Assembly (NCBI RefSeq): GCF_001623075.1
Contig: NZ_LMCF01000079.1
Coordinates: forward strand, 62,001-126,000
DNA: 64,000 nt
DNA from: Pseudovibrio sp. Ad37
Lineage (GTDB): Bacteria > Pseudomonadota > Alphaproteobacteria > Rhizobiales > Stappiaceae
Direction: 5' to 3'
Positions 47,034 through 62,605 of this stretch are shown here, piece by piece. The translations under genes were made by a program, and so were the position numbers. Each line of letters starts with the position of its first letter. The first letter of the stretch is position 1. Under the pieces are notes generated by a model that was not told the origin of the DNA, did no database searches, and was given only the letters and a program-made list of their open reading frames with translations.

Positions 47034-47039
47034 TTAAGT

Positions 47040-47067
47040 ATGCCGCTCGGTGAATGCTGAGCGGCAT
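47040..47067 (+). terminator. intercistronic hairpin between btuB and btuF
   Basis: ATGCCGCTC pairs perfectly with GAGCGGCAT. There is no T-run after it, so it may protect the btuB message or dampen read-through rather than end transcription. Confidence 0.6.
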
Positions 47068-47131
47068 CTTGCAGGGGGAAAGCTCTACTCGGGTTGCCTT
47101 CCACTTTATGTACGCCTCTCAAAAGGTCGAA

Positions 47132-48004
47132 ATGCGAAATAAGATCAAAAAGATCATGCAAATGGCGTTTCTGGTGGGTCTGGTGATCAGTCCTGCTGTT
47201 GCATGCGCTGACCAGAATGAGGCTGAGGCACCTAGGCGAGTTGTCTCCATGAACCTGTGCACCGATCAGTTCTCTATGCTGCTCGCAAACAAAGAGCAAC
47301 TGGTATCAGTCTCCAGATTAGCGTCTGACTCAACGCTCTCCGTCATGAGCGAAGAGGCAAAGGCCTATCCGGTCAACTTTGGTGGCGCAGAAGAAATCTA
47401 TCTGATGAACCCGGATCTGGTGATCGCAGGGACATACACAAATCAAACCACAGTCCAGATGCTGCGTGGTCTTGGGATAACGGTGGTCCAGGTGCCACCC
47501 GTTCGGACCATCTCCGACATCGCCAAAGAGCTGCGACGTCTCGGTAAGGTATTGGGACGTGAACAACAAGCAGAAGCGCTTGCACAGCAGTTCACCTCTG
47601 AAATCCAACAGTTAATCGATGCCCAGCCAGATGAACAGGCACGGGCAGGGGTCTACTACGCCAATGGGTACACGGCGGGAGATGGTAGCCTCGTCAATGA
47701 GTTGATCACAACGGCAGGCCTGCAGAATATTGCCAATAATCTGGGCTTGAAGGGCACAAGTAAACTGCCTCTGGAGCTGCTGATCCTCGAAGACCCACAG
47801 TTGCTTGTTGAGGGCACTCAGTTCTCAGATAAACCAGCACTGGCTTTTGAACTCCTCGCTCACCCGGCATTGAAGCGAACACTCGGCAACAGTGGCCGCG
47901 TCATGGTTGAAGACAAATACACCATTTGTGGTCTGCCGTTTGTGACGCAAGCTATTGGTAAACTGGCCAACCAAGCCACCAAATTAGGAGCGCAAGCCGA
48001 ATGA
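47132..48004 (+). CDS. btuF: periplasmic cobalamin-binding protein
   Basis: About 290 residues from ATG 47132, preceded by AAAGGTCG. An ATG at 47108 would lengthen the signal. The signal peptide is MQMAFLVGLVISPAVACA. The two-lobed class III binding fold shows RRVVSMNLCTDQFSMLLA at the start, the central LNPDLVIAGTYTN segment, a long helix, then LELLILEDPQLLVEG. It delivers B12 from the receptor to BtuC and BtuD. Its end overlaps btuC by four bases. Confidence 0.92.
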   Translation: MRNKIKKIMQMAFLVGLVISPAVACADQNEAEAPRRVVSMNLCTDQFSMLLANKEQLVSVSRLASDSTLSVMSEEAKAYPVNFGGAEEIYLMNPDLVIAGTYTNQTTVQMLRGLGITVVQVPPVRTISDIAKELRRLGKVLGREQQAEALAQQFTSEIQQLIDAQPDEQARAGVYYANGYTAGDGSLVNELITTAGLQNIANNLGLKGTSKLPLELLILEDPQLLVEGTQFSDKPALAFELLAHPALKRTLGNSGRVMVEDKYTICGLPFVTQAIGKLANQATKLGAQAE

Positions 48005-48999
48005 CAAAGCATCCGGATGCTCCGTTGATTATGGCACTATGCCTGATCGCCGCTGCCTTGTTTGTAACCTCGCTTATGATCGGCGCTGCTGATTTGACAT
48101 TCATGCAGCTGATTAAAGCAGCATTTGCTGCAGAAAAAACGCCAGTTTCCATCGTCTTCTGGGAGATCCGCGTCCCACGCGCCCTGCTGGGCTTAATCAC
48201 GGGTGCAACGCTTGGCCTATCCGGTGCGGTATTGCAGGGCCTCCTGCGCAATCCCTTGGCAGAGCCCGGCCTGATCGGCGTCAGCTCCTCCGCAAGTCTG
48301 GGTGCAGTCATCGCAATTTACACCGGGCTGACAATCACCATGCCTTTCGCGCTGCCAGCGTTTGCGCTGTTCGGCGCAGCGATTGCAGCAGTTTTGTTGC
48401 CCATGCTGGCAGGTGGCAGAGGCCAGACATTGACACTGATCCTTGCTGGCGTAGCGATCTCAAGCATCGCGACCGCACTCACCTCATTGGCGCTCAATCT
48501 GTCTCCAAACCCGTTCGCAGCCATGGAGATCGTCTTTTGGATGCTCGGCTCGCTGAACGACAGGTCCATGCAACATTTGTACATCATTGCACCGTTCATT
48601 CTCATCGGTTGGAGCCTTCTGCTCATCACGGGCAGAGGCCTCAATGCATTGTCTTTGGGTGAGGAAACCGCTCATACCATGGGCGTATCACTGCCACGTT
48701 TGCGATTTTGCGCCATTGCGGGAACTGCAGCCAGTGTGGGTGCAGTGACAGCCGTGACGGGCACAATTGGGTTCATCGGCCTCATCGTGCCTCATCTGCT
48801 GCGCAAAATGGTAGGCGGAGAACCTCAGCGTCTTTTGCTACCAAGTGCCATTGCTGGGGCTTGCTTGCTTACGCTTGCTGATATCACTGTGAAGCTGTTT
48901 GGCCCACAATCGAACCTCAAGCTCGGAGTGCTAACGGCGATTGTCGGCGCGCCGTTCTTTCTTTGGCTGATCATCAAACAACGCAGGGCTTTGATCTGA
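48001..48999 (+). CDS. btuC: cobalamin ABC transporter permease
   Basis: A 332-residue FecCD-type permease with about ten membrane segments. Typical blocks are FWEIRVPRALLGLITGATLGLSGAVLQGLLRNPLAEPGLIG and the cytoplasmic coupling region GTIGFIGLIVPHLLR (each family hallmark). It dimerises in the inner membrane. Coupled to btuF by a four-base overlap and to btuD by TGATG. Confidence 0.95.
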   Translation: MTKHPDAPLIMALCLIAAALFVTSLMIGAADLTFMQLIKAAFAAEKTPVSIVFWEIRVPRALLGLITGATLGLSGAVLQGLLRNPLAEPGLIGVSSSASLGAVIAIYTGLTITMPFALPAFALFGAAIAAVLLPMLAGGRGQTLTLILAGVAISSIATALTSLALNLSPNPFAAMEIVFWMLGSLNDRSMQHLYIIAPFILIGWSLLLITGRGLNALSLGEETAHTMGVSLPRLRFCAIAGTAASVGAVTAVTGTIGFIGLIVPHLLRKMVGGEPQRLLLPSAIAGACLLTLADITVKLFGPQSNLKLGVLTAIVGAPFFLWLIIKQRRALI

Positions 49000-49760
49000 T
49001 GCTACTTCAACTCAAAGACCTTTCCGTAAACTACGGCCCCAAGAACATCCTGTCCTCAATAAATCTGGAGATTGGTGAAGGCGAGATCGTTGGCTTGATC
49101 GGCCCCAACGGCTCAGGCAAATCCACACTGATGAAAGCCATGGTCGGATTAATCCCGTCTCATGGAAACATCAGCTACGACAACCAGCCACTCAAAAGCA
49201 TCTCTGCCAAGCAACTCTCCAAGTATGTTGCTTACATGGCGCAGGAGCGTGATGTAGCTTGGGATTTGTCTGTAGAACGCATTTTGGCACTGGGCTGTGA
49301 GGCAATCGGTGGCTCCGTACGTATGCCTAAACACAAGGCAGAACTGGAAGATACGATTGCGAGCTTGGGGCTGGAGGCGATCAGAAAAGCCTCTATCCTG
49401 CAGGTGTCTGGCGGTGAAAAAGCACGCGCACTGCTCGGAAGAGCCTTGATGCAAAAAACACCGCTGATTATTGCAGATGAACCAACGGCAGGACTTGATC
49501 CGGAACATCAGTTGGAGCTTCAGGAAATCTTTCAGAAGCTACAACAACAAGGCACATCAATGCTTGTCAGCCTGCATGACTGGACATACGCTGCCCGCCT
49601 GTGCACGCGGATCGCGATGTTAAAAGAAGGCAAACTGGTCGCGTATGGTACCCCGGAAGAGGTGCTGACCGAAGAGCGCGTGCAGGATGTCTACCGCGTC
49701 AAAGCCCATATTCTGCAAACAGAGCAAGGGCCTGTGATCACCCCTACAACACGTATTTAA
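48999..49760 (+). CDS. btuD: cobalamin ABC transporter ATPase
   Basis: A 253-residue ATPase. Walker A is GLIGPNGSGKST near residue 33, signature VSGGEKARALLGRA, Walker B LIIADEPTAGLD, and the switch His is in VSLHDWTYA. The ATG at 48999 shares a base with the btuC stop. It is the last gene of the B12 unit and converges with the RutR-like gene, only 12 bases apart and with no terminator visible. Confidence 0.95.
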   Translation: MLLQLKDLSVNYGPKNILSSINLEIGEGEIVGLIGPNGSGKSTLMKAMVGLIPSHGNISYDNQPLKSISAKQLSKYVAYMAQERDVAWDLSVERILALGCEAIGGSVRMPKHKAELEDTIASLGLEAIRKASILQVSGGEKARALLGRALMQKTPLIIADEPTAGLDPEHQLELQEIFQKLQQQGTSMLVSLHDWTYAARLCTRIAMLKEGKLVAYGTPEEVLTEERVQDVYRVKAHILQTEQGPVITPTTRI

Positions 49761-49772
49761 GAAGGCGCTTGA

Positions 49773-50402
49773 TTATTCGGGTGCAAGGCTCTTGCGGAAC
49801 ATGCGATCAAGATAAGCCGCAGCTTCTTTGAAACGGTCCTTGGACTTATCTGCCGGAAGCAACGTCTCCACCTGACTGTCAAAGTCAGCGTAATGCTGGG
49901 TCGTGGACCAGATTGAAAACAGCAGGTGGTACGGATCTGTCTCGGCGATCTTGCCCTCATTCATCCAGCCTTGAACGACGACGGTCTTCTCATCCACCAA
50001 TGACTTCAAGGGGCCGGCAATCAGAGACTTGATGCGCGGAGCACCCTGTAAGATCTCATTGGCAAACAAGCGGCTTTCCCGTGGGTAGTCCCGTGCCATC
50101 TCCAGTTTGCGGCGTACATACGCGCAAATCTCTTCAATGGGTTCACCTTCAGGATTGAGCTGATGCAGCGGGTCAAGCCAGATGTACAGCAACCGTTCAA
50201 TCAGCTCTGCATGAATGGCATCTTTGCTATCGTAATAATAAAAGAGGTTTGGTTTGGACAAGCCAGCTTGCTGAGCGACCTGATCGATCGTAGATCCACG
50301 AAATCCATAGGTTGAGAACACATCCAGCGCAGCTGCGAGGATTTTCTCAGTCTTTTCCATCTGAATTCGTGTTTTGCCTTTTGCTTCAGAAGCCTTAGCC
50401 AT
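49773..50402 (-). CDS. RutR-like TetR-family regulator
   Basis: A 209-residue TetR regulator. The helix-turn-helix ILAAALDVFSTYGFRGSTIDQVAQQAGLSKPNLFYYYDSKD is split here only for description. The ligand domain closely resembles E. coli RutR: LLYIWLDPL, RDYPRESRLFANEILQGAP, and FSIWSTTQHYADFDSQVE. RutR binds uracil or thymine and controls pyrimidine use. I chose ATG 50402 over a TTG at 50414. The gene lies downstream of the F420 genes on the same strand and in the same neighbourhood as a pyrimidine operon, which supports the assignment. Two dyads sit before it. Confidence 0.85.
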   Translation of the reverse strand: MAKASEAKGKTRIQMEKTEKILAAALDVFSTYGFRGSTIDQVAQQAGLSKPNLFYYYDSKDAIHAELIERLLYIWLDPLHQLNPEGEPIEEICAYVRRKLEMARDYPRESRLFANEILQGAPRIKSLIAGPLKSLVDEKTVVVQGWMNEGKIAETDPYHLLFSIWSTTQHYADFDSQVETLLPADKSKDRFKEAAAYLDRMFRKSLAPE

Positions 50403-50438
50403 ACTCTTTTCCAAATTGCTTAAGCACCGAACCTAAAA

Positions 50439-50453
50439 ATACCCGCTCGGTAT
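50439..50453. promoter_or_regulatory. dyad upstream of the RutR-like gene
   Basis: ATACCCGCTCGGTAT: five-base arms, 37 bases before the ATG. The shape is common for TetR operators, but no RutR-type core is visible. Confidence 0.35.
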
Positions 50454-50457
50454 ATGA

Positions 50458-50473
50458 GTAGGTTAGCACCTAC
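50458..50473. promoter_or_regulatory. second dyad upstream of the RutR-like gene
   Basis: GTAGGTTAGCACCTAC: perfect six-base arms around TAGC, next to the previous dyad. It may be an operator within the promoter. Confidence 0.35.
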
Positions 50474-50563
50474 GAAAACATAGTGCTCATATCAAGCTAA
50501 ACACTAGTAGAAAAGTCGTGATGAGGCAGCTCACCCAATAATTGTTGTTTTTCTGCAATAAAA

Positions 50564-50664
50564 CGTATCCCTGAAAAGTGGTTCCGGCTTTCGGATAAGA
50601 ATACGCGTAATAATAAAGAGTTAGAGCTTGATGCGTGAATGCACATGAACACAGCATGCTCTAA
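50564..50664. repeat. RIME-like hairpin repeat, copy C
   Basis: First module 50564-50606 (CGTATCCCTGAAAAGTGG ... GAATACG). Second module 50621-50664 (TTAGAGCTTG ... CATGCTCTAA). Same two-part design as at 24023. It separates the LLM oxidoreductase gene from the RutR-like gene. Confidence 0.7.
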
Positions 50665-50708
50665 TAAGAGAAAAGGCCGGGATCATATGGAACCCGGCCC
50701 GTGTTTGC

Positions 50709-51743
50709 TTAGCTGACAGCTTCCGGTGTTTTTGCGTTGTCCGCGTTAAATGCCGGAATGATCTTTTCGCCGTAATCTGCGATGATCTTCTCTTCGTCAC
50801 CACTGTCCAGATAGATGTTGAACTGAGTGATGCCTGCATCTTTCAGCTTGTTCAGCTTTTCAATGTGGTTTTCAGGTGGGCCGAGAACTGCAAAGCTTTC
50901 AACGATATCATCGGTAATGAAGTCGAGGAACGGATTGTCGCTCTGACCGTGCTTGGAATAGTCATAACCACGACGATTCTCGATGTAAGAAGTCAGAGAT
51001 GCAGGTACCTGATCGGTGTTTGATCCATACTTCTCAACGATATCTGCCACATGGTTGCCAACCATAGCAGGGAACCATTTGGTCTTTTCAATGCCTTCTT
51101 CCAGTGTGCCTGTATGAGCAGGAGCAGCTGCCATAATGCCGAAGTTGCTCATGTCACGGCCAGCTTCTTCACCAGCTGCAACTGCCTGATCGCCAAGCCA
51201 TTTACAAATGCCAGGCTCCGCAATCTGAAGAATAAGGCCATCGCCTACGCGGCCAGCAGAGCTCAACGCTTTTGGCCCATAAGCCGCAACCCAGACAGGG
51301 AGCTCATAACCATCCGCCCATGGGAACTTCACTGGCTCAGGGCATTCACCGTACTGCGCTTCTTCACCACGGATCAGAGCTTTAACAGTGTGAGTGAATT
51401 CTTCCAGACGCTTCAGCGGAGCAGGTTTTTTGCCCATCACGCGCACAGCACTGTCGCCGCGGCCCAGACCAATATCAAAACGACCACCGGACTGTTTGGC
51501 AAGCGAACCAAACAAGCTGGCTGCATGAGACCAGTCACGGGTGTTTGGGTTGGTCACGCATGGTCCAAAACGCATGTTTTTGGTGTGTTCCATGCACATT
51601 GCCATAGCCACGAAGCTCTCACGCCACAAAATGTGACTGTCGTAGAACCAGCAATACTTGAAACCAGCATTTTCAGCCTGACGAACCAGTGCCTTCGCGC
51701 GCTCTGGTTCTACAAACCCTTTAAAGCAAATACCAAAGTCCAT
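50709..51743 (-). CDS. F420-type luciferase-like (LLM) oxidoreductase
   Basis: A 344-residue TIM-barrel protein of the luciferase-like family, on the F420-binding side near methylene-tetrahydromethanopterin reductase: MDFGICFKGFVEPERAKALVRQAE, WFYDSHILWRE, FGPCVTNPNTRDWS, GGRFDIGLGRGDSA and VWVAAYGPKAL. It resembles the group built around Colwellia CPS_4043 found in actinobacteria and some proteobacteria, whose substrate is unsettled. ATG 51743 follows AAGGAGA. It lies directly downstream of an F420:NADP oxidoreductase and F420 synthesis genes. It may reduce a substrate of the neighbouring pyrimidine operon. The alternative is an FMN monooxygenase like RutA. Confidence 0.85.
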   Translation of the reverse strand: MDFGICFKGFVEPERAKALVRQAENAGFKYCWFYDSHILWRESFVAMAMCMEHTKNMRFGPCVTNPNTRDWSHAASLFGSLAKQSGGRFDIGLGRGDSAVRVMGKKPAPLKRLEEFTHTVKALIRGEEAQYGECPEPVKFPWADGYELPVWVAAYGPKALSSAGRVGDGLILQIAEPGICKWLGDQAVAAGEEAGRDMSNFGIMAAAPAHTGTLEEGIEKTKWFPAMVGNHVADIVEKYGSNTDQVPASLTSYIENRRGYDYSKHGQSDNPFLDFITDDIVESFAVLGPPENHIEKLNKLKDAGITQFNIYLDSGDEEKIIADYGEKIIPAFNADNAKTPEAVS

Positions 51744-51781
51744 GTGTGTCTCCTTCACAAATAGTAAGGTGTTGTTCAAAA

Positions 51782-51826
51782 CGTACCCTCGAAAAACGGC
51801 AGTTGGTTTTCGAAGAAGGATACGCC
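51782..51826. repeat. RIME-like hairpin repeat, copy D (first module only)
   Basis: ACGTACCCTCGAAAAACGG ... CGAAGAAGGATACGCC, a diverged copy of the first module, between the npdG-like gene and the LLM gene inside the F420 operon. Confidence 0.6.
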
Positions 51827-51836
51827 CGAAAAAGTC

Positions 51837-52505
51837 TTAGTGATCCGGTGCCCAGATGCGGATTCCCGCATGTGTAAACGGCACAGCTTTTGAAATGTTC
51901 TGACGAATGAGGATCGGGGTAATCGCCTCAATACAGCGTGCTGCTTTTGCATTGCCGCTATTGTAGGTTTTCACATCGAGCTTGTTGACCAGCTCCATCA
52001 CCACCTTGCGGGCAGCAAGGCTGTCACCGCACACGAGGATGTCGCAGTTGATCGGCCAATCCAGATTGTTCAAAGTCGTGGCCGAAACATTGTGCAATGC
52101 GCCCACAACAGGAATGTCTGGCCCAAGCAATGCTTGTGCAGCCTCAGTAGCAGAGCCTTCTGGCGGCATTTCGACGGTCTTCGGGTCACCTGGGGCAAGC
52201 GGAACAACAATGTCGATCAGGATTTTACCAGCAAGGTGCGGTTTCAGGGCGTTTAACGTTGCGTCGTGCGCTGCATAAGGCACAGCAAGCATAACGCACT
52301 CGCCAGCCGCTGCCACCGCATCCTCGTTACCCATACCGTTGATCTGCGCAGAACCTTCTGGGAGCTTGCTCATCAACTCCTCGGCAATTTCCTTGCCGCG
52401 AACTGCATCACGAGAGCCAAGCGCAACGGGACCGCCCGCACGTGCAAACCTGAGTGCAAGCCCCTGACCCTGTGGCCCGGTTCCTCCGATAATTGCTAAT
52501 GTCAT
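51837..52505 (-). CDS. npdG: F420:NADP+ oxidoreductase-like protein
   Basis: A 222-residue Rossmann protein: [22 protein letters not shown] at the start (NADP loop), [15 protein letters not shown] binding the 2'-phosphate, [15 protein letters not shown] and a helical C-terminus. Fno/NpdG swaps electrons between NADPH and F420 in the cytosol. Here it could supply F420H2 for the LLM enzyme. Its ATG overlaps the cofE stop by four bases. Confidence 0.88.
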
Positions 52506-53272
52506 CGGAACATGTCCTCCTTCTTAGATCTTATTAAATCCTGTGCCGAGCTCGCCTCCAGCGTCCAGTTCAGTCCGCGAAACAGCACAACAGGCGTCTG
52601 TCCTGCTTTGCTGATCACCAGACCGGAAGCCGCGGCCAACTCATCTGCAAAGGCTGGTTCAGTCACACTGAGCAAACGCCCATGTGCATCCGAGTTGCCT
52701 TGTTCTTTGATTGTTGCCGGAACACCGGCAAGGCCCACAGCCACGTTCACTTGGCCAAGTCGCCAGGGCCGTCCAAAAGTGTCCGTAATGGCGAAGCCGA
52801 TCTCGACGTTAAAGCGTTTGGAAAGCGCCGCCTGCATGCGGGTAGCGCTGGCATCCGGGTCTTCAGGCAGCAAAATGAGCGTTTCATCTGTGCCGCTGTT
52901 GGATTCATCGACGGCCGCATTGGCGGAAATGAAGCCCAAACGGTGCTCACAGATCATCGTCCCTTCATTTTGCGTCGGACGCTTAAAATGGCGAACCACC
53001 CGAGTGCTTTCCTGCAGGATAATCTCAACCTTGCGTGGGTCTTTGTTCAGCTCCTCCGCATAGGTCTGCGCGTCTTCAGAAGGCGTGACATCTGACAGGC
53101 TCACAATGCGGCCTTCCGCCTTGGAGAAGATCTTATGCGCAGATGTCAGGACGTCTCCGTCTTGCAAAGAAAGCCCAGCTGCCTCAATGGCATCGCCCAA
53201 AATAGCAGCGAGATCATCGCCGGGATTGATCTCTGGAATGTTCGGTATCGCATGTAGGGAAAGTGTATGCAT
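52502..53272 (-). CDS. cofE: coenzyme F420-0:L-glutamate ligase
   Basis: About 256 residues. It adds glutamate to F420-0 with GTP, forming the gamma-glutamyl tail. The family start [40 protein letters not shown] and the [19 protein letters not shown] core are present. It is the single-domain form and lacks the nitroreductase-like domain fused in actinobacterial FbiB. ATG 53272 overlaps the cofC stop in TGATG. How many glutamates are added cannot be read from the sequence. Confidence 0.93.
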
Positions 53273-53922
53273 CAAACAGCTCTCCGATCGGAACGTTTTG
53301 CACGGAGCCGGGGCTGATGTGCGCTCAAATCTTCCATATAGTCGATATCTCTGGAAAAGGAGGAGGACGGAACGATCACGCAGTTCAAACCACGCTCTGC
53401 CGCTTGGGCCTGATGCTTCAGAAAGGATGAACTGCCATAGGTGAACGAAATGGCATCCGGCGGCGTTACAATCAGCACATTGGTGCCGTAGTCATGTGCC
53501 GGGCACAAAACCAGTGAATTCGGCGAACCAACAAGTCCCAGAAGCCGCTCAAACTCACCAAAGTCAGGAGCTGCGATATCGGCAGGTAAAACGCATAGTG
53601 TCTCGTAATCATGCGCTTTTGCCCAAAGAGCAGCAGTGGTCAGTGCACAGTTCAGTCCATCTTCCTGTCCCTCTAAGATCAAGTGAAGGCGATGATCAGT
53701 CACGGCTTTTGCGATATCCGCTGAACTTGTGACCACTGCAATCTCAAAGGGCGTGCTGCTGCGTGCCTGGGCGTCCTGCAGGAAGGCAACGGTCTGCGCA
53801 AATAAGTTTGCGGCCACGGTGGCCCGTTCTCTGGCATCAAGATCCGGCCCAAGACGCGACTTGGCTCTCGCAAAATCTTTTACCGGAACAACAATAAGCG
53901 TTTTGAAAGTGGTTTCCGTCAT
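53272..53922 (-). CDS. cofC: F420 precursor guanylyltransferase (CofC family)
   Basis: A 216-residue nucleotidyltransferase fold. It has a VVPVKDFARAKSRLGPDLDARERATVAANLF start (a family hallmark), an LPADIAAP metal-binding segment and SFTYGSSSFLKHQAQA. It activates 2-phospholactate, PEP or 3-phosphoglycerate with GTP, depending on the lineage. The substrate here is not predictable by eye. Coupled to cofD by an ATGA overlap. Confidence 0.9.
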   Translation of the reverse strand: MTETTFKTLIVVPVKDFARAKSRLGPDLDARERATVAANLFAQTVAFLQDAQARSSTPFEIAVVTSSADIAKAVTDHRLHLILEGQEDGLNCALTTAALWAKAHDYETLCVLPADIAAPDFGEFERLLGLVGSPNSLVLCPAHDYGTNVLIVTPPDAISFTYGSSSFLKHQAQAAERGLNCVIVPSSSFSRDIDYMEDLSAHQPRLRAKRSDRRAV

Positions 53923-54902
53923 GCACTCAGCTCCTGGGCCTCGGAAGCTTTTTCACTCCCAACACCAGAAACTGCGAGTAACGCCGCTGCCAGACGTACT
54001 TTGTCATCGCGGGTCTTCATAAGGATCGTGTCCGTGAAGGTGCGCAGACCAAGGTCATTGATGGCAGTCACATGCTGCTCATCTGCGTGGTCAATCACAA
54101 AGCAATCCAGAAAATCCGCATAAATCTGCGCCACGCCAAAGGCTGATGCTTCATAGCCAAGAGAAGCCAGCATCCGGTCCGCAGGGCCTTTCACGACACC
54201 GCCATTGATGATCGGCGAAACTCCAACCTTTGGAGCCTTGGAGGCCTTCACCGCTTCCAGAATACCGGAAATTTTCAGGATTGGCAGAATGCTCACGAGG
54301 GGGTTGCTTGGTGCAACCACAATCAAGTCTGCCTCAGCAAGTGCGCTCAAGGCTTCCTCAGTGGCATGTGCGTCCTCGATATGATCGTAATGCAGCTCCC
54401 GAACCTCAGGCGCACAGCGCTCTTTGACGAAGTATTCCTGAAAGCTCAGCCAACCTGCCTCCGTTCTCACACGCGTTTGAACCGTATCGTCCGTTGGCAA
54501 AATTATCTCGCACTCAAGGCCAAAGCTCTTGGCGATATCACGTGCAATATGCGTTGGGCGATCTCCCTGACGGCGTCGGTGTGTGCGGTAGATGTGTAGA
54601 CCAAAATCACGGTCTCCAAGTGACATCCATGTATCGTCACCCAGTTTAGAGAGCGTGTCTAACGCGCGGTGGCCTTCATCCGCCACACCCCAACCTTGTT
54701 GGCGATCAATCACATCGGCAAGCGTGTAGGTGAGGGTATCAATGTCCGGCGAAATCCAAAGGCCGTGGAAAGCTTCGTCATCTGCAATGTTGCCGATGAT
54801 GGAAAGCTCTACGTTCTCCAGATGATACAGGCCTTCCGCCATTTTGGCGCCGCCAACCCCTCCGGCAATCAAAGTGACTTTGATAGGCGTGTTTGAGCTC
54901 AT
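53919..54902 (-). CDS. cofD: F420-0 synthase, phospholactyl-type transferase to FO
   Basis: A 327-residue CofD: TLIAGGVGGAKMAEGLYHL (phosphate loop), NIADDEAFHGLWISPDIDTLTYTLA, GDRDFGLHIYR and IVVAPSNPLVSILPIL. It transfers the phosphate-linked side chain to FO, giving F420-0 or its dehydro form. The ends overlap cofC and cofH by four bases each. Confidence 0.95.
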   Translation of the reverse strand: MSSNTPIKVTLIAGGVGGAKMAEGLYHLENVELSIIGNIADDEAFHGLWISPDIDTLTYTLADVIDRQQGWGVADEGHRALDTLSKLGDDTWMSLGDRDFGLHIYRTHRRRQGDRPTHIARDIAKSFGLECEIILPTDDTVQTRVRTEAGWLSFQEYFVKERCAPEVRELHYDHIEDAHATEEALSALAEADLIVVAPSNPLVSILPILKISGILEAVKASKAPKVGVSPIINGGVVKGPADRMLASLGYEASAFGVAQIYADFLDCFVIDHADEQHVTAINDLGLRTFTDTILMKTRDDKVRLAAALLAVSGVGSEKASEAQELSA

Positions 54903-56173
54903 CCAGCACCTCCAGCCGCTTGTACAGGCGCACCATCAGCCTCAGTCAGGAAGTTCAGCAGCCCGGAATGTGCGCGGGCAACCAATGGCGCCTGTTGTTC
55001 TGGCAATCCATCGGCAAAATCATTGATCACGCCATAAATGGTGTTGCGCTGAACAGGCTCTCTGCCTGCTTCCTGAATGACTTGGCACATCTCATAGGCT
55101 GTGATTTCCTGCCCATGAGCCGCCCCAGCAGAGCGGGAGATGCTCTCATTCATCAAAGTGCCGCCCAGATCATTCACGCCGCATTGTAAAAGATCAGAGG
55201 CAAACTCAGCACCAAGCTTAGTCCAGGAAACCTGAATGTTGTCGATCCAGCCATGCAGCATAATCCGCGAAACTGCATGCATCTTGCGTACTTCCAAATC
55301 AGTCGGACCAGGGCGCACGTTTTTCGGATCCGCCGTATAAAGTGGGCTCTCGGAGTGAACGAAGCTCAGGGGCACCAGTTCGGTGAAGCCTCCGGTTTCC
55401 TTTTGAATATCGCGCAGCAAGGCGATGTGAGCCGCCCAATGCTCCGGTCCATCAATATGGCCGTACATAATCGTTGCGGTGGTCGAAATTCCAACCTCGT
55501 GGGCCGCTTTGATGATCTCCACCCACTTCTCGGTGCTCAATTTGTTACGGGTCAGCTGCTGGCGAATATCTGTGTCCAGAATTTCCGCCGCTGTACCGGG
55601 CAGGGAACCCAGCCCGCAATCCTTCAGGTCCTGAAGAAAGTCCGTGTAAGACTGCTTGGTCTTGGCCGCACCATACCAAACCTCAAACGGCGAAAACGCA
55701 TGGATGTGCATGTCCGGCAGCGCTTTTTTGATTGCCAGCACGAGCTCACGATAATAAGTGCCTTCCATTTTCGGGTGTAGTCCACCCTGAATGCAGACCT
55801 CAGTCGCTCCGCGGTCCCAAGCTTCCTGCGCCCGTGCCACAACTTGCTCAGGCACCAGCCATTCGGCGCCAGGGTCTTCGGTTCGCTTGGCAAATCCACA
55901 AAACTTGCAGCCCATGTAGCAGACATTGGTGAAGTTGATGTTCCGGTTAACTACAAAGCCCACCCGATCACCATTGCACCGCTGACGAAGCGTATCCGCC
56001 ACATAGGCAATAGCTGGAAATTCTTCTGCTGAGGCACGGAACAGGCATTCGCCTTCAGCTTGAGAAACCTCATTACCAGCCAGCGCCTTGCTCAAAATAT
56101 CACGAACGGGAGCGCTAACACTGCGAAACTCTGGCGTATCACCGGCGCGCTGCGGGAAATTGTGAAGGGTCAT
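54899..56173 (-). CDS. cofH: FO synthase subunit 2 (radical SAM, CofH)
   Basis: A 424-residue radical SAM enzyme with the cluster motif NVCYMGCKFCGFAKR (Cys spaced 3 and 2). ICIQGGLHPKMEGTYY and IMYGHIDGPEHWAAH follow. With CofG it joins tyrosine and the ribitylaminouracil of riboflavin synthesis into the deazaflavin FO. The ATG at 56173, with GGAGG eight bases upstream, overlaps the cofG stop as ATGA. A longer upstream frame is not needed. CofG and CofH are separate genes here, unlike the fused FbiC of actinobacteria. Confidence 0.95.
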   Translation of the reverse strand: MTLHNFPQRAGDTPEFRSVSAPVRDILSKALAGNEVSQAEGECLFRASAEEFPAIAYVADTLRQRCNGDRVGFVVNRNINFTNVCYMGCKFCGFAKRTEDPGAEWLVPEQVVARAQEAWDRGATEVCIQGGLHPKMEGTYYRELVLAIKKALPDMHIHAFSPFEVWYGAAKTKQSYTDFLQDLKDCGLGSLPGTAAEILDTDIRQQLTRNKLSTEKWVEIIKAAHEVGISTTATIMYGHIDGPEHWAAHIALLRDIQKETGGFTELVPLSFVHSESPLYTADPKNVRPGPTDLEVRKMHAVSRIMLHGWIDNIQVSWTKLGAEFASDLLQCGVNDLGGTLMNESISRSAGAAHGQEITAYEMCQVIQEAGREPVQRNTIYGVINDFADGLPEQQAPLVARAHSGLLNFLTEADGAPVQAAGGAG

Positions 56174-57309
56174 AGGGTGCCTCCTGACTGAAGCGAGGCA
56201 GAGGAACCCATCTGTTCCCAAAGCCCTTGTGATTTTGAAAGCACAGCAGGGTCAACAAACTCGGTTTTATCGCGCAGATAACTCGGATAAACGGTCAGGC
56301 GCTCTTCCAGCTTCTGCCCTGCCAGCTGAGTAGATTGTGCAAGCTCATCAATCACTGGCCAGCGGTGCTGTGGGTTGATGAAATCAATGGTAACCGGCGA
56401 AATGCCGCCCCAGTCGTTGATACCCGCACTCAGGTATTCCATATGTCGCTCACTCAGATTTGGCGGTGCCTGAAGACTGATTTTTGGTGAAAGGATCAAC
56501 CGGGCCACGGCCAGCGTGCGCAGCATGTCATCCAGCGAAGGTTCCGGATGGTTTTCCATTCCGATCCCTGGCTTGCGCTGGAAATTCTGGATAATCACTT
56601 CCTGGATATGGCCGTGCCGAGCATGGCTTTCATTGATAGCCTCGAGTGCTTCAATGCGCTCTTCCCACGTCTCGCCAATGCCGATCAGCAGTCCGGTGGT
56701 AAACGGGATCTTCTTTTGTCCAGCACGTTCCAAAGTCCGCAGGCGCTGGACAGGAGCCTTATCCGGACAGCCGTAATGCGGTTGGCCTTCTTTCATCAAT
56801 CGACGACTGGTTGTCTCCAGCATCATGCCCATAGAGGCGGCAAAGGGGCGAAGCTGATCAATCTCTTCATCGCTCAGCGTACCCGCATTCACGTGGGGCA
56901 GGAGAGTTGTTTCCCCCAGCACCATCTCACAGGCATCCGCCAGATAGCTTATCATGGAACTGTAGCCAAGCGTTGCCAGAGCCGCTTTCGCCTGCTCGTA
57001 GCGCAGTTCGGGCTTCTCACCCAGACTGAACAGCAGTTCCTTACATCCGGTCTCTTCACCCTGACGCGCCGTACGCATCACTTGCTCCGGTGTCATGATG
57101 TTGGCTTCGGGCGAGCTGGGGTGTTTGACAAATGTGCAATACGTACATGTATCCCTGCACATGTTTGTCAGTGGTGCAAAAACTTTACGGGAGTAGGTGA
57201 CAGTGTTGCCCCAATACTGAAGCTTTACTGTAGCAGCCTGTTGCATCAGATCCCGAAGATCTGAGCCTTGCACTTCCCCCAGGTATCGCGCTTGGTCAGC
57301 AGTCAACAT
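56170..57309 (-). CDS. cofG: FO synthase subunit 1 (radical SAM, CofG)
   Basis: A 379-residue radical SAM enzyme with LTNMCRDTCTYCTFVK (Cys spaced 3 and 2), then ELLFSLGEKPELRY, LLPHVNAGTL, FTTGLLIGIGETWEER and a C-terminal GINDWGGISPVTIDF. Partner of CofH in FO synthesis. ATG 57309 has GAGGT nine bases before it. It is the first gene of the leftward operon, facing the 826-base regulatory gap. Confidence 0.95.
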   Translation of the reverse strand: MLTADQARYLGEVQGSDLRDLMQQAATVKLQYWGNTVTYSRKVFAPLTNMCRDTCTYCTFVKHPSSPEANIMTPEQVMRTARQGEETGCKELLFSLGEKPELRYEQAKAALATLGYSSMISYLADACEMVLGETTLLPHVNAGTLSDEEIDQLRPFAASMGMMLETTSRRLMKEGQPHYGCPDKAPVQRLRTLERAGQKKIPFTTGLLIGIGETWEERIEALEAINESHARHGHIQEVIIQNFQRKPGIGMENHPEPSLDDMLRTLAVARLILSPKISLQAPPNLSERHMEYLSAGINDWGGISPVTIDFINPQHRWPVIDELAQSTQLAGQKLEERLTVYPSYLRDKTEFVDPAVLSKSQGLWEQMGSSASLQSGGTL

Positions 57310-58135
57310 AATTTTTTACCTCTCGGTCAAAAAATATCGGCAACTACCAGTTAGTCAAGCAAGAATTATCTCTAAGGCAGAATATCTGTTTTGCAATGCA
57401 AATATAACCTGTCCTCCAAAATATAAACTTGGAGTGATGCAGAGCTTTTTGGGTAAGTTTGCAGTGCAGCATTAGAGGTCTCTAAGTTAGTTTTTTCTTG
57501 TTAAAGCTTATCTTGGCAGAATAGATAGTGAACTTTACTCGCATATTTATCCGCTGAGGCTTTGTCTGTTCTATTTGTTACACTTTTATAATTAGGTGCG
57601 AAAAATAAACTAAGTTGTGGAGCTTTCTTGTGTGAGATAGCGGTATGCTGAGAGAGAGGTCGGCTAATTTATCGGCTTACCCCTTGTAATGTTAGAGATA
57701 TTTCTTACTAGTATCAGGAGCCTGAAACAAATTTTGAAGGTGGGTTGACAGATAATTGACTGTTTGGTCCAATTTACCCAAAGTTTTGGGAGGGGAATAT
57801 CCAAGATTTAAGCTGAACTAAGCTATTGTATGAGGGGGCCACCTCTGCATACGATACCTACTCTGTTCCAAATGGGAAAAATAACCCTGCGGGAAATCTA
57901 GTAGATTGAATTTTTGACATATTTTGCCTGCAGCTTGTTTATGTGCGGTTGCAATCCGTCCGTCCTGTCAAAAAAAGAGATACAGCTCGAATCCTGCGAA
58001 AGTCCTCATCGGTTTTATCAGTTTTATACTCCTTCGGGAGACCAGATAACTATGGCGAGCCCGTTGTGATTACAAAGAATAAAGCGCGGGTGAGTTGAAT
58101 AAAACGACGTTGTAAAAGCGTTATCGGAGAGACTT
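57310..58135. other. divergent regulatory region between F420 and pyrimidine operons
   Basis: 826 bases, A/T-rich, with no supported gene. It separates cofG (leftward) from the amidohydrolase gene (rightward) and must hold both promoters. The only clear regulatory sign is a RutR-like box at 57756. Its length is unusual beside the overlapping genes on both sides, so a small RNA or leader could be hidden here. I see none that I can support. Confidence 0.5.
57756..57772. promoter_or_regulatory. RutR-like operator
   Basis: TTGACTGTTTGGTCCAA. Against the E. coli RutR consensus TTGACCAnnTGGTCAA it matches at 11 of 14 fixed positions over the first 16 bases. It lies near the middle of the divergent region, and a RutR-like gene is in the same locus. 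Confidence 0.5.
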
Positions 58136-59407
58136 ATGAGTAAACTTGGCTCAAATCATCGTATTAATGGTGACAGACTGTGGCGTAGCCTTATGGATAT
58201 GGCCCAAATCGGACCCGGTGTTCGTGGCGGCAACAACAGGCAGACGCTCACAGACGAAGATGCCGAGGGCCGCAAGCTTTTCACCATCTGGTGTGAGGCT
58301 GAAGGCATGTCAATGCACATCGATACCATGGGCAATATGTTTGCCCGGCTGGAAGGGGAAGATCCGAGCCTTGATCCGATCATGATCGGCTCTCATTTGG
58401 ATACGCAGCCAACTGGTGGCAAGTATGATGGTGTGCTTGGTGTACTTGCAGGTCTGGAAGTGATCCGCTCCATTCGTGAGCGTGGCATAAAAACCAAACA
58501 CCCAATTGAGGTGGTCAACTGGACCAACGAAGAGGGCACCCGTTTCGCACCGGCTATGCTGGCCTCTGGTGTGTTTGCTGGTATGCACACGCAGGACTGG
58601 GCCTATGATCGCGAAGATGCAGAAGGCAAAAAGTTTGGCGATGAGCTGAAGCGCATCGGCTATGTGGGCGAGGAGCCAGTCGGCGCGCGCAAACTCCATG
58701 CCATGTTTGAACTCCACATTGAGCAGGGACCAATCCTCGAAATCGAGGAAAAAGACATCGGTGTTGTCACCCACGGTCAGGGGCTCTGGTGGCTGCAGGT
58801 CACCCTCACAGGAAAAGACAGCCACACCGGTTCAACCCCAATGCCAATGCGCAAAAATGCAGGTCTTGGCATGGCGCGCATCACAGAGTTGGTGCACCAG
58901 ATTGCCATGGAGAACCAGCCAGAAGCCGTTGGCGCCATTGGACATTGCGACGTCTATCCAAACAGCCGCAATGTGATTCCGGGTAAAACCGTCTTCACCA
59001 TTGATTTCCGCTCCCCGCATCAGGACGTTCTGGATGGCATGAAAGCCAAACTGGAAGCTGAAGCACCGAAAATCGCAGAAGAACTTGGTCTGGGCATCGA
59101 GATCGAAGCCGTCGGTCACTTTGATCCGGTCACCTTCGATGAAGGCTGCGTCTCTGCCGTGCGCAATGCAGCAGAGCGCCTGAGCTATTCTCACCGCAAC
59201 ATCATTTCCGGCGCAGGCCACGATGCTTGCTGGATAAACCGTGTAGCGCCAACAGCCATGATCATGTGCCCATGCGTGGATGGTTTGAGCCACAACGAAG
59301 ACGAAGAGATTTCAAGAGAGTGGGCAACTGCAGGTGCTGACGTGCTGTTCCATGCAGTGCTTGAGTACGCGGAAATTGAGCAAGATACCACCGAGCCAGC
59401 CGAATAA
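58136..59407 (+). CDS. N-carbamoyl-beta-alanine / N-carbamoyl amino acid amidohydrolase
   Basis: A 423-residue M20-fold zinc hydrolase of the ureidopropionase/allantoate group. Metal ligands are visible in GSHLDTQPTGGKYDGVLG (His and Asp), WTNEEGTRF (Glu), ELHIEQGP (His) and the C-terminal CVDGLSHNEDEEIS (His). The dimer domain lies between them, with the bridging GKDSHTGSTPM. It would release ammonia and CO2 from carbamoyl-beta-alanine, the last step of reductive pyrimidine breakdown. It is first in an operon with dihydropyrimidinase, 32 bases apart. A carbamoyl-alpha-amino acid substrate (hydantoin route) is the alternative. Confidence 0.92.
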   Translation: MSKLGSNHRINGDRLWRSLMDMAQIGPGVRGGNNRQTLTDEDAEGRKLFTIWCEAEGMSMHIDTMGNMFARLEGEDPSLDPIMIGSHLDTQPTGGKYDGVLGVLAGLEVIRSIRERGIKTKHPIEVVNWTNEEGTRFAPAMLASGVFAGMHTQDWAYDREDAEGKKFGDELKRIGYVGEEPVGARKLHAMFELHIEQGPILEIEEKDIGVVTHGQGLWWLQVTLTGKDSHTGSTPMPMRKNAGLGMARITELVHQIAMENQPEAVGAIGHCDVYPNSRNVIPGKTVFTIDFRSPHQDVLDGMKAKLEAEAPKIAEELGLGIEIEAVGHFDPVTFDEGCVSAVRNAAERLSYSHRNIISGAGHDACWINRVAPTAMIMCPCVDGLSHNEDEEISREWATAGADVLFHAVLEYAEIEQDTTEPAE

Positions 59408-59439
59408 CCCAAAGATTTGAAAGAGTTGAGGACTGCAAT

Positions 59440-60894
59440 ATGTCTAAAGTTATCAAAGGCGGCACGATTGTAACTGCCGATAGAACCTACAAGTCTGATG
59501 TGCTGGTTGACGGTGGCAAGATCATCGAAATAGGTAAGAACCTCTCCGGTGATGAAACGCTGGATGCCACCGGCTGTTATGTCATGCCGGGCGGGATTGA
59601 CCCGCACGTGCATCTGGAAATGCCGTTCATGGGAACGCATTCTGCAGACAACTTCGAGATTGGCACAAGGGCAGGCCTTGCTGGCGGCACAACCATGGTG
59701 GTGGACTTTTGTCTGCCATCTCCCGGCCAGTCCATGATGGAAGCGCTTGCCATCTGGCAGCAGAAGTCCGGCGCAGCATGCTCGGATTACTCCTACCACA
59801 TGGCTGTCACGTGGTGGGGCGAGCAGGTCTTTAACGAAATGCAGGAGGTAGTTGATCGCGGCATCAACACCTTCAAACATTTCATGGCCTATAAAGGTGC
59901 GTTGATGGTGGATGATGACGAAATGTTCGCATCTTTCCAACGTTGTGCCGCGCTTGGTGCAATGCCGCTCGTCCATGCCGAGAACGGTGATGTAGTCGCC
60001 ACCATGCAGCAAAAACTGCTGGCAGAAGGCAACAACGGTCCGGAAGCGCATTCTTATTCTCGCCCGCCGGAAGTGGAAGGTGAGGCAGCCAACCGTGCAA
60101 TCATGATCGCGGATATGGCTTGTGTACCGCTCTACATCGTGCACACAAGCTGTGAGCAGGCCCATGAAGCCATCCGCCGCGCCCGTCAAAAAGGCATGCG
60201 TGTGTATGGGGAACCGCTCATCCAGCACCTGACACTGGATGACAGCGAGTATGCCAACCCGAATTGGGACCACGCCGCACAGCGCGTCATGTCGCCTCCG
60301 TTCCGCAACAAACAGCATCAGGATAGCCTTTGGGCAGGCTTGCAGTCCGGCTCATTGCAGGTGGTCGCAACTGACCACTGCGCCTTTACATTGGAGCAGA
60401 AACGCTTTGGTGTTGGCGACTTTACCAAGATCCCGAACGGTACAGGCGGTTTGGAAGACCGCATGCCAATGCTCTGGTCAACCGGTGTGCGCACAGGCCG
60501 CCTGACCATGAACGAGTTCGTAGCTGTCACTTCCACCAATATCGCCAAGATCCTGAATATGTATCCTAAAAAAGGTGCAATTCTTGAAGGAGCGGATGCC
60601 GACATTGTTGTCTGGGATCCTAACCGCTCAAAAACAATCACTGCTGCAAATCAGCAGTCCTGCGTCGAATACAACGTGTTTGAAGGCAGGGAAGTGGTCG
60701 GTCTGCCACGCTTCACACTCACCCGTGGCAAAGTCGCGATTGAGGAAAGTACGGTTAAAACCGAACCAGGTCACGGTGAATTCGTTGGTCGCGAGCCAAA
60801 TGCTCCGGTCGGCGCCGCTCTGTCCAAGTGGAAGGAAATCACAGCGCCTCGCAAAGTTGAGCGCCGGCCAGAATTGATGCCAGCAGGCGTATAA
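59440..60894 (+). CDS. hydA: dihydropyrimidinase (D-hydantoinase)
   Basis: Opens the ring of dihydrouracil or dihydrothymine (and hydantoins). A 484-residue amidohydrolase: metal site GGIDPHVHLEMPF near residue 53, the carboxylated lysine region NTFKHFMAYKGAL near 150, PLVHAENGD, LYIVHTSCEQAHEAI, and VVATDHCAFTLEQKRFG (catalytic Asp). TIM barrel with small beta domains at both ends, normal length. It follows the amidohydrolase gene and precedes the NCS1 permease, the standard reductive pyrimidine set without the dehydrogenase. Confidence 0.96.
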   Translation: MSKVIKGGTIVTADRTYKSDVLVDGGKIIEIGKNLSGDETLDATGCYVMPGGIDPHVHLEMPFMGTHSADNFEIGTRAGLAGGTTMVVDFCLPSPGQSMMEALAIWQQKSGAACSDYSYHMAVTWWGEQVFNEMQEVVDRGINTFKHFMAYKGALMVDDDEMFASFQRCAALGAMPLVHAENGDVVATMQQKLLAEGNNGPEAHSYSRPPEVEGEAANRAIMIADMACVPLYIVHTSCEQAHEAIRRARQKGMRVYGEPLIQHLTLDDSEYANPNWDHAAQRVMSPPFRNKQHQDSLWAGLQSGSLQVVATDHCAFTLEQKRFGVGDFTKIPNGTGGLEDRMPMLWSTGVRTGRLTMNEFVAVTSTNIAKILNMYPKKGAILEGADADIVVWDPNRSKTITAANQQSCVEYNVFEGREVVGLPRFTLTRGKVAIEESTVKTEPGHGEFVGREPNAPVGAALSKWKEITAPRKVERRPELMPAGV

Positions 60895-60913
60895 GTCTGC
60901 ACACAGAGCAAAA

Positions 60914-61012
60914 GGTGCATCTCCGAAAAGAGGACACTGGCTTTCGGAACAAGAGGCGCCTGAAAACAACAATTTAGAGCATGTCGCAGAGCTAAAAAGC
61001 ATTGCGATATGC
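60914..61012. repeat. RIME-like hairpin repeat, copy E
   Basis: First module 60914-60960 (GGTGCATCTCCGAAAAG ... AAGAGGCGCC). Second module from about 60973 (TTTAGAGCATG ...). It lies between hydA and the permease gene inside the operon. Confidence 0.65.
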
Positions 61013-61105
61013 CATCAGGTCCGCGTGGGGTACGCGGGCTGGTCATTAAACGCAGTAGTTTTTATAGAGGGGATCTGCTGCCTTTAATCTGAGGGGAATT
61101 ACTCG

Positions 61106-62605
61106 ATGTCGGACTCAACTCTAGGCTCAACCGGGAATGTCGTCCCGGACGAGTTTGGTATTATCCATCAGGAACTAGTCGGAATCGACGGTGATCTTTA
61201 CAACGAAGATCAGCTGCCAACCGCTGCTGTAGCTCGTACATGGAACTGGGTTTCCATCTCCGCGCTCTGGGTCGGGATGGTGGTCTGTATCCCAACTTAT
61301 CTGCTCGCGTCCTATCTGATTGGCGCAGGAATGAGCTGGGATCAGGCGGTCATGACGATCCTGCTCGCCAACGCAATCGTTCTCATTCCAATGGTCCTGA
61401 TCGGCCATGCAGGCACCAAGTATGGTATTCCATTCCCGGTGCTGCTGCGCTCGTCCTTTGGTCCAGCTGGTGCCAAATTTCCAGCAGTCGCCCGTGGTAT
61501 CGTGGCTTGTGGCTGGTTCGGTATTCAGACATGGGTTGGCGGTTCTGCGATCTACGTGATCCTGAACACGCTCATGAGTGGAGCACTGGCAGGTGACCCG
61601 CTCCCAATTCTGGGCATCAATGCAGGCCAGTTTGCCTGCTTCATGGCGTTTTGGGCACTGCACCTGTACTTCATCAAAAACGGTACAGAATCCATCCGTT
61701 GGCTGGAAACTTATGCAGCGCCATTCCTGCTTGCAATGGGTCTGGCACTGCTGGCATGGGCTTATGTCAATGCAGGTGGGTTCGGCGCAATGCTTTCCAC
61801 TCCAAGCCAGTTTGCTGAAGGTCAGCCTAAAGAAGGCCAGTTCTGGTCCGTCTTCTGGCCAAGCCTCACAGGTATGGTCGGCTTCTGGGCAACCCTTGCA
61901 CTGAACATTCCGGACTTTACGCGCTATGCAAAGAGTCAGAAAGACCAGTTCATGGGGCAGGCTGTTGGCCTTCCAATCCCAATGGCGCTGTTTGCGTTCA
62001 TCGCCTCTGCGGTGACCTCCGCAACTGTGGTGATCTTCGGCGAACCAATCTGGGATCCAATTGTATTGGCTGAGAAAATGGGCGGCATGAGCATTATCAT
62101 CGCTCTGTTCGCACTCATCGTTGCAACGCTCACCACCAACCTGGCGGCAAACGTTGTGGCTCCGGCGCACGGGTTCTCCAACCTGGCACCGAAATCCATC
62201 AACCTGCGCACCGGCGGTTACATCACAGCGGCTATTGGCCTTGTGATGTTCCCATGGATCCTCGTGAACCACATCATCGGTTGGTTGATTGCATACTCAG
62301 CGCTGCTGGGGCCGATTGCGGGAATTATGCTGGCAGACTACTACCTGCTGCGCAAAACCAAGCTCAATGTGGAAGATCTGTTCAAGCACAACGGCATCTA
62401 TTCCGGCTCAAACGGCTGGAACTGGGCGGGCGTGCTCGCGCTGATTATCGGTATCCTGCCAAACCTTCCAGGCTTCCTGGCAGGCGTAGGCCTTTCCGGT
62501 CCAGCCTCACCCCTGTTCGCAACCATCTACACCTATGCATGGTTCGTTGGTCTGTTCGTGGCAGGTATCGCCTACCTTATTCTGGCGAAAATCCTGAACA
62601 AGTAA
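61106..62605 (+). CDS. NCS1-family nucleobase/hydantoin permease
   Basis: A 499-residue transporter with about twelve hydrophobic segments. The NCS1 pattern is clear: RTWNWVSISALWVGMVVCIPTYLL at the first segment (N-terminal tail about 45 residues), GIPFPVLLRSSFG, ACGWFGIQTWVGG, NIPDFTRYAKSQKDQF and the NLAANVVAPAHGFSNL loop. It probably brings uracil, thymine, dihydropyrimidines or hydantoins into the cell. Same direction as hydA, with a hairpin repeat between. Confidence 0.93.
   Translation: MSDSTLGSTGNVVPDEFGIIHQELVGIDGDLYNEDQLPTAAVARTWNWVSISALWVGMVVCIPTYLLASYLIGAGMSWDQAVMTILLANAIVLIPMVLIGHAGTKYGIPFPVLLRSSFGPAGAKFPAVARGIVACGWFGIQTWVGGSAIYVILNTLMSGALAGDPLPILGINAGQFACFMAFWALHLYFIKNGTESIRWLETYAAPFLLAMGLALLAWAYVNAGGFGAMLSTPSQFAEGQPKEGQFWSVFWPSLTGMVGFWATLALNIPDFTRYAKSQKDQFMGQAVGLPIPMALFAFIASAVTSATVVIFGEPIWDPIVLAEKMGGMSIIIALFALIVATLTTNLAANVVAPAHGFSNLAPKSINLRTGGYITAAIGLVMFPWILVNHIIGWLIAYSALLGPIAGIMLADYYLLRKTKLNVEDLFKHNGIYSGSNGWNWAGVLALIIGILPNLPGFLAGVGLSGPASPLFATIYTYAWFVGLFVAGIAYLILAKILNK

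Follow-up and report, generated by a model that had tools for sequence, protein, structure and literature searches.

The 64,000-nucleotide stretch of Pseudovibrio sp. Ad37 DNA analysed here (contig C79, positions 62001 to 126000, called the window below; genome 5.88 Mb, 99.94% complete) contains a gene cluster in which an oxidoreductase of the luciferase family (LLM) and the genes for making the cofactor F420 lie beside genes of pyrimidine degradation. Our analysis indicates that this cluster very probably encodes the reductive catabolism of uracil and thymine, with PreTA replaced by the unrelated LLM protein acting as an F420H2-dependent reductase. PreTA, the usual first enzyme of the reductive pathway, is an NAD(P)H-dependent flavin/iron-sulfur enzyme. 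Dihydropyrimidinase (HydA) and N-carbamoyl amidohydrolase (HyuC) need a dihydropyrimidine as input.

The minus strand carries a seven-gene unit, cofG-cofH-cofD-cofC-cofE-npdG-LLM, whose genes overlap or are closely spaced, with a RutR-like gene next to it. The hyuC-hydA-NCS1 genes diverge from cofG across an 826-base gap. The initial annotation had listed a RutR-like regulator, an LLM protein, an F420:NADP oxidoreductase, cofGHDCE, and amidohydrolase, dihydropyrimidinase and NCS1 permease genes, and every one of them was found in its place.

Both known first steps, PreTA and RutA, were missing from the genome. PF01180, which covers PreA and PyrD, matched only once, at a quinone-type PyrD, and no protein passed the PreA cut-off (NF006183) anywhere in the genome, so that the absence of preT and preA noticed earlier in the window was extended to PreA genome-wide. 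RutA was not found in the genome at E≤1e-100, nor was its model TIGR03612 matched. HydA passed its cut-off once in the genome, as the cluster copy (59440..60894, plus strand; TIGR02033 592 bits, cut-off 393), whose nearest PDB entry is the dihydropyrimidinase 3dc8.

The LLM gene (50709..51743, minus strand; reading frame open from 51779) encodes the proposed F420H2-dependent uracil/thymine reductase and matches TIGR03842 with 501.7 bits (cut-off 295.45). Its product is 100% identical in the Pseudovibrio loci L037 and L038. Mer was the nearest PDB entry in both fold and sequence. In the structure list ordered by Z, ranks 1–15 were all F420-dependent enzymes; the LLM model was closer to the F420-dependent Mer than to any FMN enzyme, and nearer to Mer than to Adf. 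The motif VTNPxxR is common to LLM and Mer. The predicted structure is thus Mer-like and of the F420 type, which speaks for the interpretation on one outcome that the initial annotation had named as refuting, an LLM active site unable to bind F420. That LLM may bind and use F420 is suggested, indirectly, by the finding of CofD in 52/52 LLM genomes (see below). LLM was rejected as the Mer of one-carbon metabolism: it reached 118 bits with the Mer model TIGR03555 (cut-off 349), and the counterpart of Mer E6 was C, T or V in 35/35 members of the LLM family and never Glu (the alignments excluded near-duplicates as well as rows interrupted by an in-frame stop). PDB entry 8qq8 is a Mer E6Q mutant.

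Other F420 enzymes were sought in the genome through three Pfam families (PF00296, PF01243 and PF04075). PF00296 matched twice, at the cluster LLM and at a second LLM (L002, G000:C27:33917-34858) that starts 3 bases after a flavin-reductase-family gene and whose best NCBIfam model is the FMN-dependent TIGR04020, below its cut-off (118.8 of 244.45 bits). PF01243 matched at six places. Five of these proteins were scanned and gave PdxH, one weak Nim and three TIGR04025 matches, of which two were weak and one, of the FMN type, was over cut-off, with no F420 model matched; the sixth (L155), on the opposite strand, looked by eye like L154. PF04075 had no match in the genome, but its control was silent too. 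The earlier suggestion that the cofactor operon is kept for one pathway therefore fits this genome, in which no other F420 enzyme was recognised, as far as three Pfam families with one silent control can carry it.

A search of public genomes gave 134 relatives, from which 80 loci were kept, many of them ending at contig ends. By tblastn, these loci contained CofE (76), CofD (75), NpdG (72), CofH (64), CofC (64), CofG (62), HyuC (43), RutR (42), HydA (41), NCS1 (22) and PntA (12). PreA was found in the examined flanks of none of the 80. A class III aminotransferase was present in 20 of the 80, six of which were at least 66% identical to the AptA-type query and 14 only 26–33%. LLM lies beside HyuC/HydA in Alpha- and Gammaproteobacteria, and the recurrence of the arrangement in many genera argues that it is not due to chance.

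The composition of the cluster varies among these relatives. Pseudovibrio loci carry HydA, HyuC and NCS1; on a Leisingera plasmid, genes for PntAB and an AptA-type aminotransferase separate the two cluster halves; Marinomonas has the same gene set in a different order. In a Streptomyces plasmid record, a TIGR03842 gene (588 bits) follows HydA by 11 bp, and among the other reading frames of this locus (L120) NCBIfam and Pfam named only an aminotransferase, trpS and an opposite-strand polysaccharide lyase. In the Roseibium-type variant, LLM is divergent from cofD-cofC-fbiC-fgd-cofE. There (L059, L066, L073, L075, L076 and L078; detail read in L059) a fused fbiC and Fgd, the F420-dependent glucose-6-phosphate dehydrogenase, replace cofG/cofH and npdG; the L059 Fgd matches TIGR03554 with 490 bits (cut-off 420). 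The same LLM is thus found with two different ways of supplying F420; PntAB and NpdG would each drive electrons towards F420H2, and we infer that LLM is the F420H2 consumer of the cassette.

Some loci were unusual in other ways. In eleven loci of marine Alphaproteobacteria (L084–L088, L091, L094 and L096–L099), two of them in genomes of 1.6 Mb, the unit is cofD-cofE-npdG-LLM, with cofD and cofE less than 90 bp apart in L088, and the flanks examined yielded no cofG, cofH or cofC; FO salvage, or genes elsewhere in the genome, are possible. Locus L055, on a contig titled Nocardioides marinus, is a Leisingera-type LLM locus (LLM 83% identical to that of Pseudovibrio sp. Ad37, PntA 81% to that of Leisingera), and the record is probably mislabelled or contaminated. 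Near IS66 genes, locus L119 (Caballeronia sp. SBC2 plasmid pSBC2-6) has a partial LLM, a HyuC-like Zn-dependent hydrolase, a short pntB and an alanine dehydrogenase, and it appears to be a degenerate remnant of the cassette in Betaproteobacteria.

The distribution of LLM across genomes points to a replacement of PreTA. Among 398 Pseudomonadota genomes, PreA was found in 67 and HydA in 91, all 67 PreA genomes having HydA, and TIGR03842 passed its cut-off in only two, the Pseudovibrio sp. Ad37 genome included. We took 50 LLM genomes (48 genomes of chosen loci, our own G000, and G158). HydA was present in 48 of them; PreA was missing over cut-off in 37, of which 35 kept HydA. Among HydA-bearing genomes, PreA was thus found in 13/48 with LLM versus 67/89 without LLM (Fisher p 7e-8, the lineages not being independent). 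CofD, whose search added L079 and L092 and so raised the number of LLM genomes to 52, was found at E≤1e-30 in 52/52, 49 of them over the curated cut-off, and in 0/3 comparators without LLM. All six fetched PreA-less genomes with an unlinked LLM (L134–L139) have a RutR-HyuC-HydA-ABC cluster without preTA. G262, which belongs to the same family but to a different genus, has preT-preA together with HydA and HyuC that are 88% and 76% identical to those of the Pseudovibrio sp. Ad37 cluster, and has neither LLM nor CofD. Of the outcomes that had been named as decisive, a PreTA pair elsewhere in the genome was not found, and the co-occurrence of the LLM and its partner genes across genomes was strong.

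A tree of 41 HydA proteins requires a minimum of four switches between the labels PreTA-linked and LLM-genome (the best tree has 5, bootstraps 4–6). Identical proteins were collapsed for this tree and HydA of PreA-less LLM genomes were put in the LLM group, while L034 (which overlaps L143), L140, two reductase-less genomes and distant HydA were left out; it contains many near copies, has Marinomonas as one long-branched row, and its bootstrap is unsettled. Judging by these changes of partner, HydA of the same lineages seem to work with LLM in some genomes and with PreTA in others.

Analysis on the regulator (49773..50414, minus strand; TetR type, PF08362) showed that it is 41% identical to E. 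coli RutR and falls below the cut-offs of both RutR models (TIGR03613, 223 of 368 bits; NF011584, 204 of 230 bits). RutR-like, as used in the initial annotation, is therefore the right word. The five residues W77, Y97, W167, Q171 and Q179, named as uracil contacts in the portion of PMC10891134 available, are identical in 78/78 RutR frames, our regulator included (E≤1e-15, 150–420 aa, overlapping loci counted separately).

A palindrome, TTTGACC-N4-GGTCAAA, was found upstream of cofG in 45/63 loci with at most 3 mismatches of 14, while 60 permuted palindromes averaged 0.67 loci at cofG, the highest value being 5. The motif is close to the consensus of the E. coli RutR box, and the E. coli rutA/rutR gap holds a site with 3 mismatches. 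At the Pseudovibrio sp. Ad37 locus, the site TTTTACCTCTCGGTCAAA (57314..57331) lies immediately upstream of cofG. By group, the cofG site was found in Pseudovibrio (7/7), Leisingera with L055 (6/6), Limimaricola (5/6), Marinomonas/Oceanospirillum (16/16), Flavimaribacter-like loci (2/2), Thalassovita (1/1), Shimia (1/1) and Epibacterium/Tritonibacter (1/2). The six Roseibium-type loci have it in 0/6 at the inner cofG and in 6/6 in the cofD/LLM gap, mostly as one site counted from both sides. Sites also occur upstream of hyuC (17/44), of preT (6/9), and of hyuC in PreTA/HydA loci (9/15, four of them perfect). Upstream of hydA (0/35) and NCS1 (1/23) they were nearly absent, as expected for inner genes, and the totals for cofD (8/76) and LLM (6/81) were not above the control maximum of 8. 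Where LLM and HydA lie at separate loci, each of the two loci has a site in 8/8 genomes examined (at most 3 mismatches, taking the best among several promoters, with no control of its own). Across the 5.88 Mb of our genome, no site other than that at cofG has one mismatch or fewer; about one is expected by chance by our estimate, so it is conservation, and not the own-genome count, that carries the argument.

Several observations weigh against the replacement of PreTA by LLM or against parts of its support. On the protein side, TIGR03842 is itself only a 'hypothetical equivalog', and the family-specific loop 223–275 of LLM, with W223, MVGNH at 227–231, RxGYDY at 257–262 and H265, was modelled at lower confidence. 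As for the palindrome, some of the sites that defined the motif came from Pseudovibrio, and with its 7 loci removed the cofG count is 38/56; sites with 2–3 mismatches also occur inside genes of two E. coli stretches; in our own genome, sites with at most 2 mismatches were not commoner than the control (31 vs 42); the sites at pntA (8/9) are physically the cofG sites viewed from the opposite side; and the cofG site was found in 0/2 loci of Cohaesibacter, 0/2 of SAR116 and 5/11 other alphaproteobacterial loci. No good site was found upstream of hyuC in Pseudovibrio (0/5 loci), our own locus having a weak candidate with 3 mismatches (57755..57772), 364 nucleotides upstream of hyuC. In Pseudovibrio, the predicted control would thus cover the cof-LLM half, the hyuC side being without a strong site. 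In the genome comparison, the Paracoccus alcaliphilus LLM locus has no HydA within 25 kb; G424 and G429 have LLM and no HydA at E≤1e-100, G429 being a 2.2 Mb metagenome-assembled genome with a RutA-like gene below cut-off; and G427, an LLM genome, also has RutA over cut-off, which the other 49 of 50 lack. The Rhodobacteraceae-like G226 (L145) and G299 (L146) have a RutR-HyuC-HydA-ABC cluster without PreA, TIGR03842 LLM, CofD, or RutA over cut-off. The HydA cluster is therefore not always paired with one of the two reductases, and these two genomes either have a third kind of first-step enzyme or only use dihydropyrimidines. Finally, PreA passed its cut-off in 13/50 LLM genomes (12 Leisingera-, Limimaricola- and Shimia-like, one Roseibium), and 12 of these 13 carry two or three HydA. 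In such genomes, LLM adds a route and does not replace one, and this F420 route has to be redundant, used under certain conditions or suited to another pyrimidine.

The second route kept in these PreTA genomes, with its additional HydA, would also be explained if LLM reduced, in place of uracil or thymine, a related ring feeding HydA/HyuC. This could be a modified pyrimidine (for example 5-hydroxymethyluracil), the precursor of a hydantoin, or a ring derived from purines, for example yanthine. A luciferase-family F420-dependent yanthine reductase has been proposed as a putative enzyme in Chloroflexota (PMC12507026, text available in part). We consider this explanation unlikely, as the same RutR-type palindrome stands at the LLM and the PreTA routes, the uracil pocket of RutR is intact in all 78 frames, LLM-linked and PreTA-linked HydA intermix on the tree, and most LLM genomes lack the known alternatives (37/50 without PreA, 49/50 without RutA over cut-off). 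The initial annotation had left the substrate as pyrimidine or hydantoin. Our results favour uracil/thymine, the hydantoin option being weakened by the RutR pocket, by the kinship of HyuC and HydA, and by the linked AptA-type omega-aminotransferase in some relatives.

LLM could also act at the end of the pathway, as an Adf-like F420H2-dependent malonate or methylmalonate semialdehyde reductase, the first step being unrecognised or dihydropyrimidines being imported. This is improbable, because 35 of the 37 LLM genomes without PreA keep HydA, HydA lineages switch between PreTA and LLM, and the modelled LLM structure comes closer to that of Mer than to that of Adf. Still far less probable is that LLM is a RutA-like FMN monooxygenase opening the ring oxidatively, with the F420 genes as bystanders: RutA is also an LLM protein and is regulated by RutR in E. 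coli, but a RutA-type monooxygenase was rejected here since TIGR03612 is unmatched and the fold is of the F420 type.

If LLM is the uracil/thymine reductase, the pathway could proceed as follows. The NCS1 protein, placed in its family from sequence, would import the pyrimidine. Uracil or thymine would bind to the pocket of the RutR-like repressor and free the palindromic operator at cofG, so that F420 would be made when a pyrimidine is available. NpdG would reduce F420 with NADPH; genes for PntAB are added in some relatives, and Fgd stands in place of NpdG in others. With F420H2 as hydride donor, LLM would then reduce the C5=C6 bond, giving the 5,6-dihydropyrimidine. HydA would open this ring, and HyuC would release beta-alanine or beta-aminoisobutyrate, CO2 and ammonia, as do known relatives of these families.

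On a wider scale, mostly marine bacteria seem to carry the genes for F420 production beside LLM under a uracil-sensing switch. We lean towards the view that reducing uracil/thymine with F420H2 is one of the main purposes for which these Alpha- and Gammaproteobacteria use F420, that their F420 biosynthesis operon is a substrate-induced catabolic operon, and that it forms with LLM a self-sufficient cofactor-plus-enzyme cassette which has been exchanged, also on plasmids, and assembled at least twice (with NpdG and with Fgd). F420 is best known from methane-making microbes. Why Proteobacteria make it was called an open question in the accessible part of a 2021 review (PMC8498797), which also states that no bacterial F420H2-dependent reductase outside Actinobacteria had been studied experimentally. 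If our reading is true, it would give the first clear reason for these bacteria to make F420, a function for the TIGR03842 family, and a clear non-orthologous replacement in a widespread nitrogen-scavenging pathway; through the Streptomyces LLM gene next to HydA, the route would also reach into Actinobacteria. With enzyme, substrate and regulator named, the role of F420 in Proteobacteria turns into a simple question of growth and enzyme experiments. Low F420 would be expected in uninduced cells. Growth without pyrimidine could explain the trace F420 of Paracoccus denitrificans mentioned in the same part of PMC8498797, provided that the strain has the cassette, as P. alcaliphilus does.

The remaining genes of the cluster could be assigned over model cut-offs. 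On the minus strand, cofG (56170..57309; TIGR03550, 461 bits, cut-off 213), the first gene of the unit, and cofH (54899..56221; TIGR03551, 501 bits, cut-off 374) encode the FO synthase subunits; the cofH reading frame overlaps cofG, and the true start is probably within it. They are followed by cofD, for a phospholactate-type transferase (53919..54902; TIGR01819, 285 bits, cut-off 257), cofC, for the guanylyltransferase (53272..53922; TIGR03552, 139 bits, cut-off 105), cofE, for the F420-0:L-glutamate ligase (52502..53275; TIGR01916, 243 bits, cut-off 181), and npdG, for the NADPH-dependent F420 reductase (51837..52505; TIGR01915, 185.9 bits, cut-off 149.8). CofC, here and in relatives, is far less conserved than the rest (often 27–45% identity, against mostly 45–80%), which may reflect a changed substrate. 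On the plus strand, hyuC (58136..59407; NF006769, 697 bits, cut-off 452) encodes an N-carbamoyl-beta-alanine/L-carbamoyl amidohydrolase whose nearest PDB entries are 8apz, 8aq0 and 8c46. It scores 660 bits against 8c46 (N-carbamoyl-beta-alanine amidohydrolase) and 682 bits against 8apz (N-carbamoyl-L-amino-acid hydrolase), so that its match to beta-ureidopropionase is at the family level (NF006769) only. The NCS1 nucleobase:cation symporter gene is at 61106..62605 (TIGR00800, 365 bits, cut-off 353). Genes for a TonB receptor and a B12-type ABC transporter (BtuB/BtuFCD-like; 45198–49760) adjoin the cluster as a separate transcription unit.

In the sections of open-licence papers covered, no proposal of F420-dependent pyrimidine reduction was found. 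What came nearest was the putative yanthine reductase of Chloroflexota, which shares with LLM the family, the proposed F420 donor and the position of ring reduction before hydantoinase-type hydrolases; it differs in that its ring is purine-derived, its phylum is another and it is a proposal without experiment, and the available part of PMC12507026 describes no F420 biosynthesis operon or RutR control with it. Mer shares with LLM the nearest fold and sequence and the VTNPxxR motif, whereas LLM differs at the E6 position and stays below the Mer cut-off. The Rut pathway (RutA–G, RutR) shares the RutR-type regulator and palindrome but uses oxidative FMN chemistry, and its RutA is absent from our genome. 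In Clostridium chromiireducens, the dihydropyrimidine dehydrogenase reportedly depends on ferredoxin (Wang et al. 2020), so that this step is known with a different electron donor; that enzyme is said to stay in the PreA family, while the reductase proposed here belongs to another protein family. The Pyd pathway with PreTA/dihydropyrimidine dehydrogenase (EC 1.3.1.1) has HydA, HyuC, RutR-type control, transporters and the position of the reductase in common with the cluster. The two would differ in the reductase itself, which is the flavin/iron-sulfur PreTA with NAD(P)H in the one and the unrelated LLM with F420H2 in the other.

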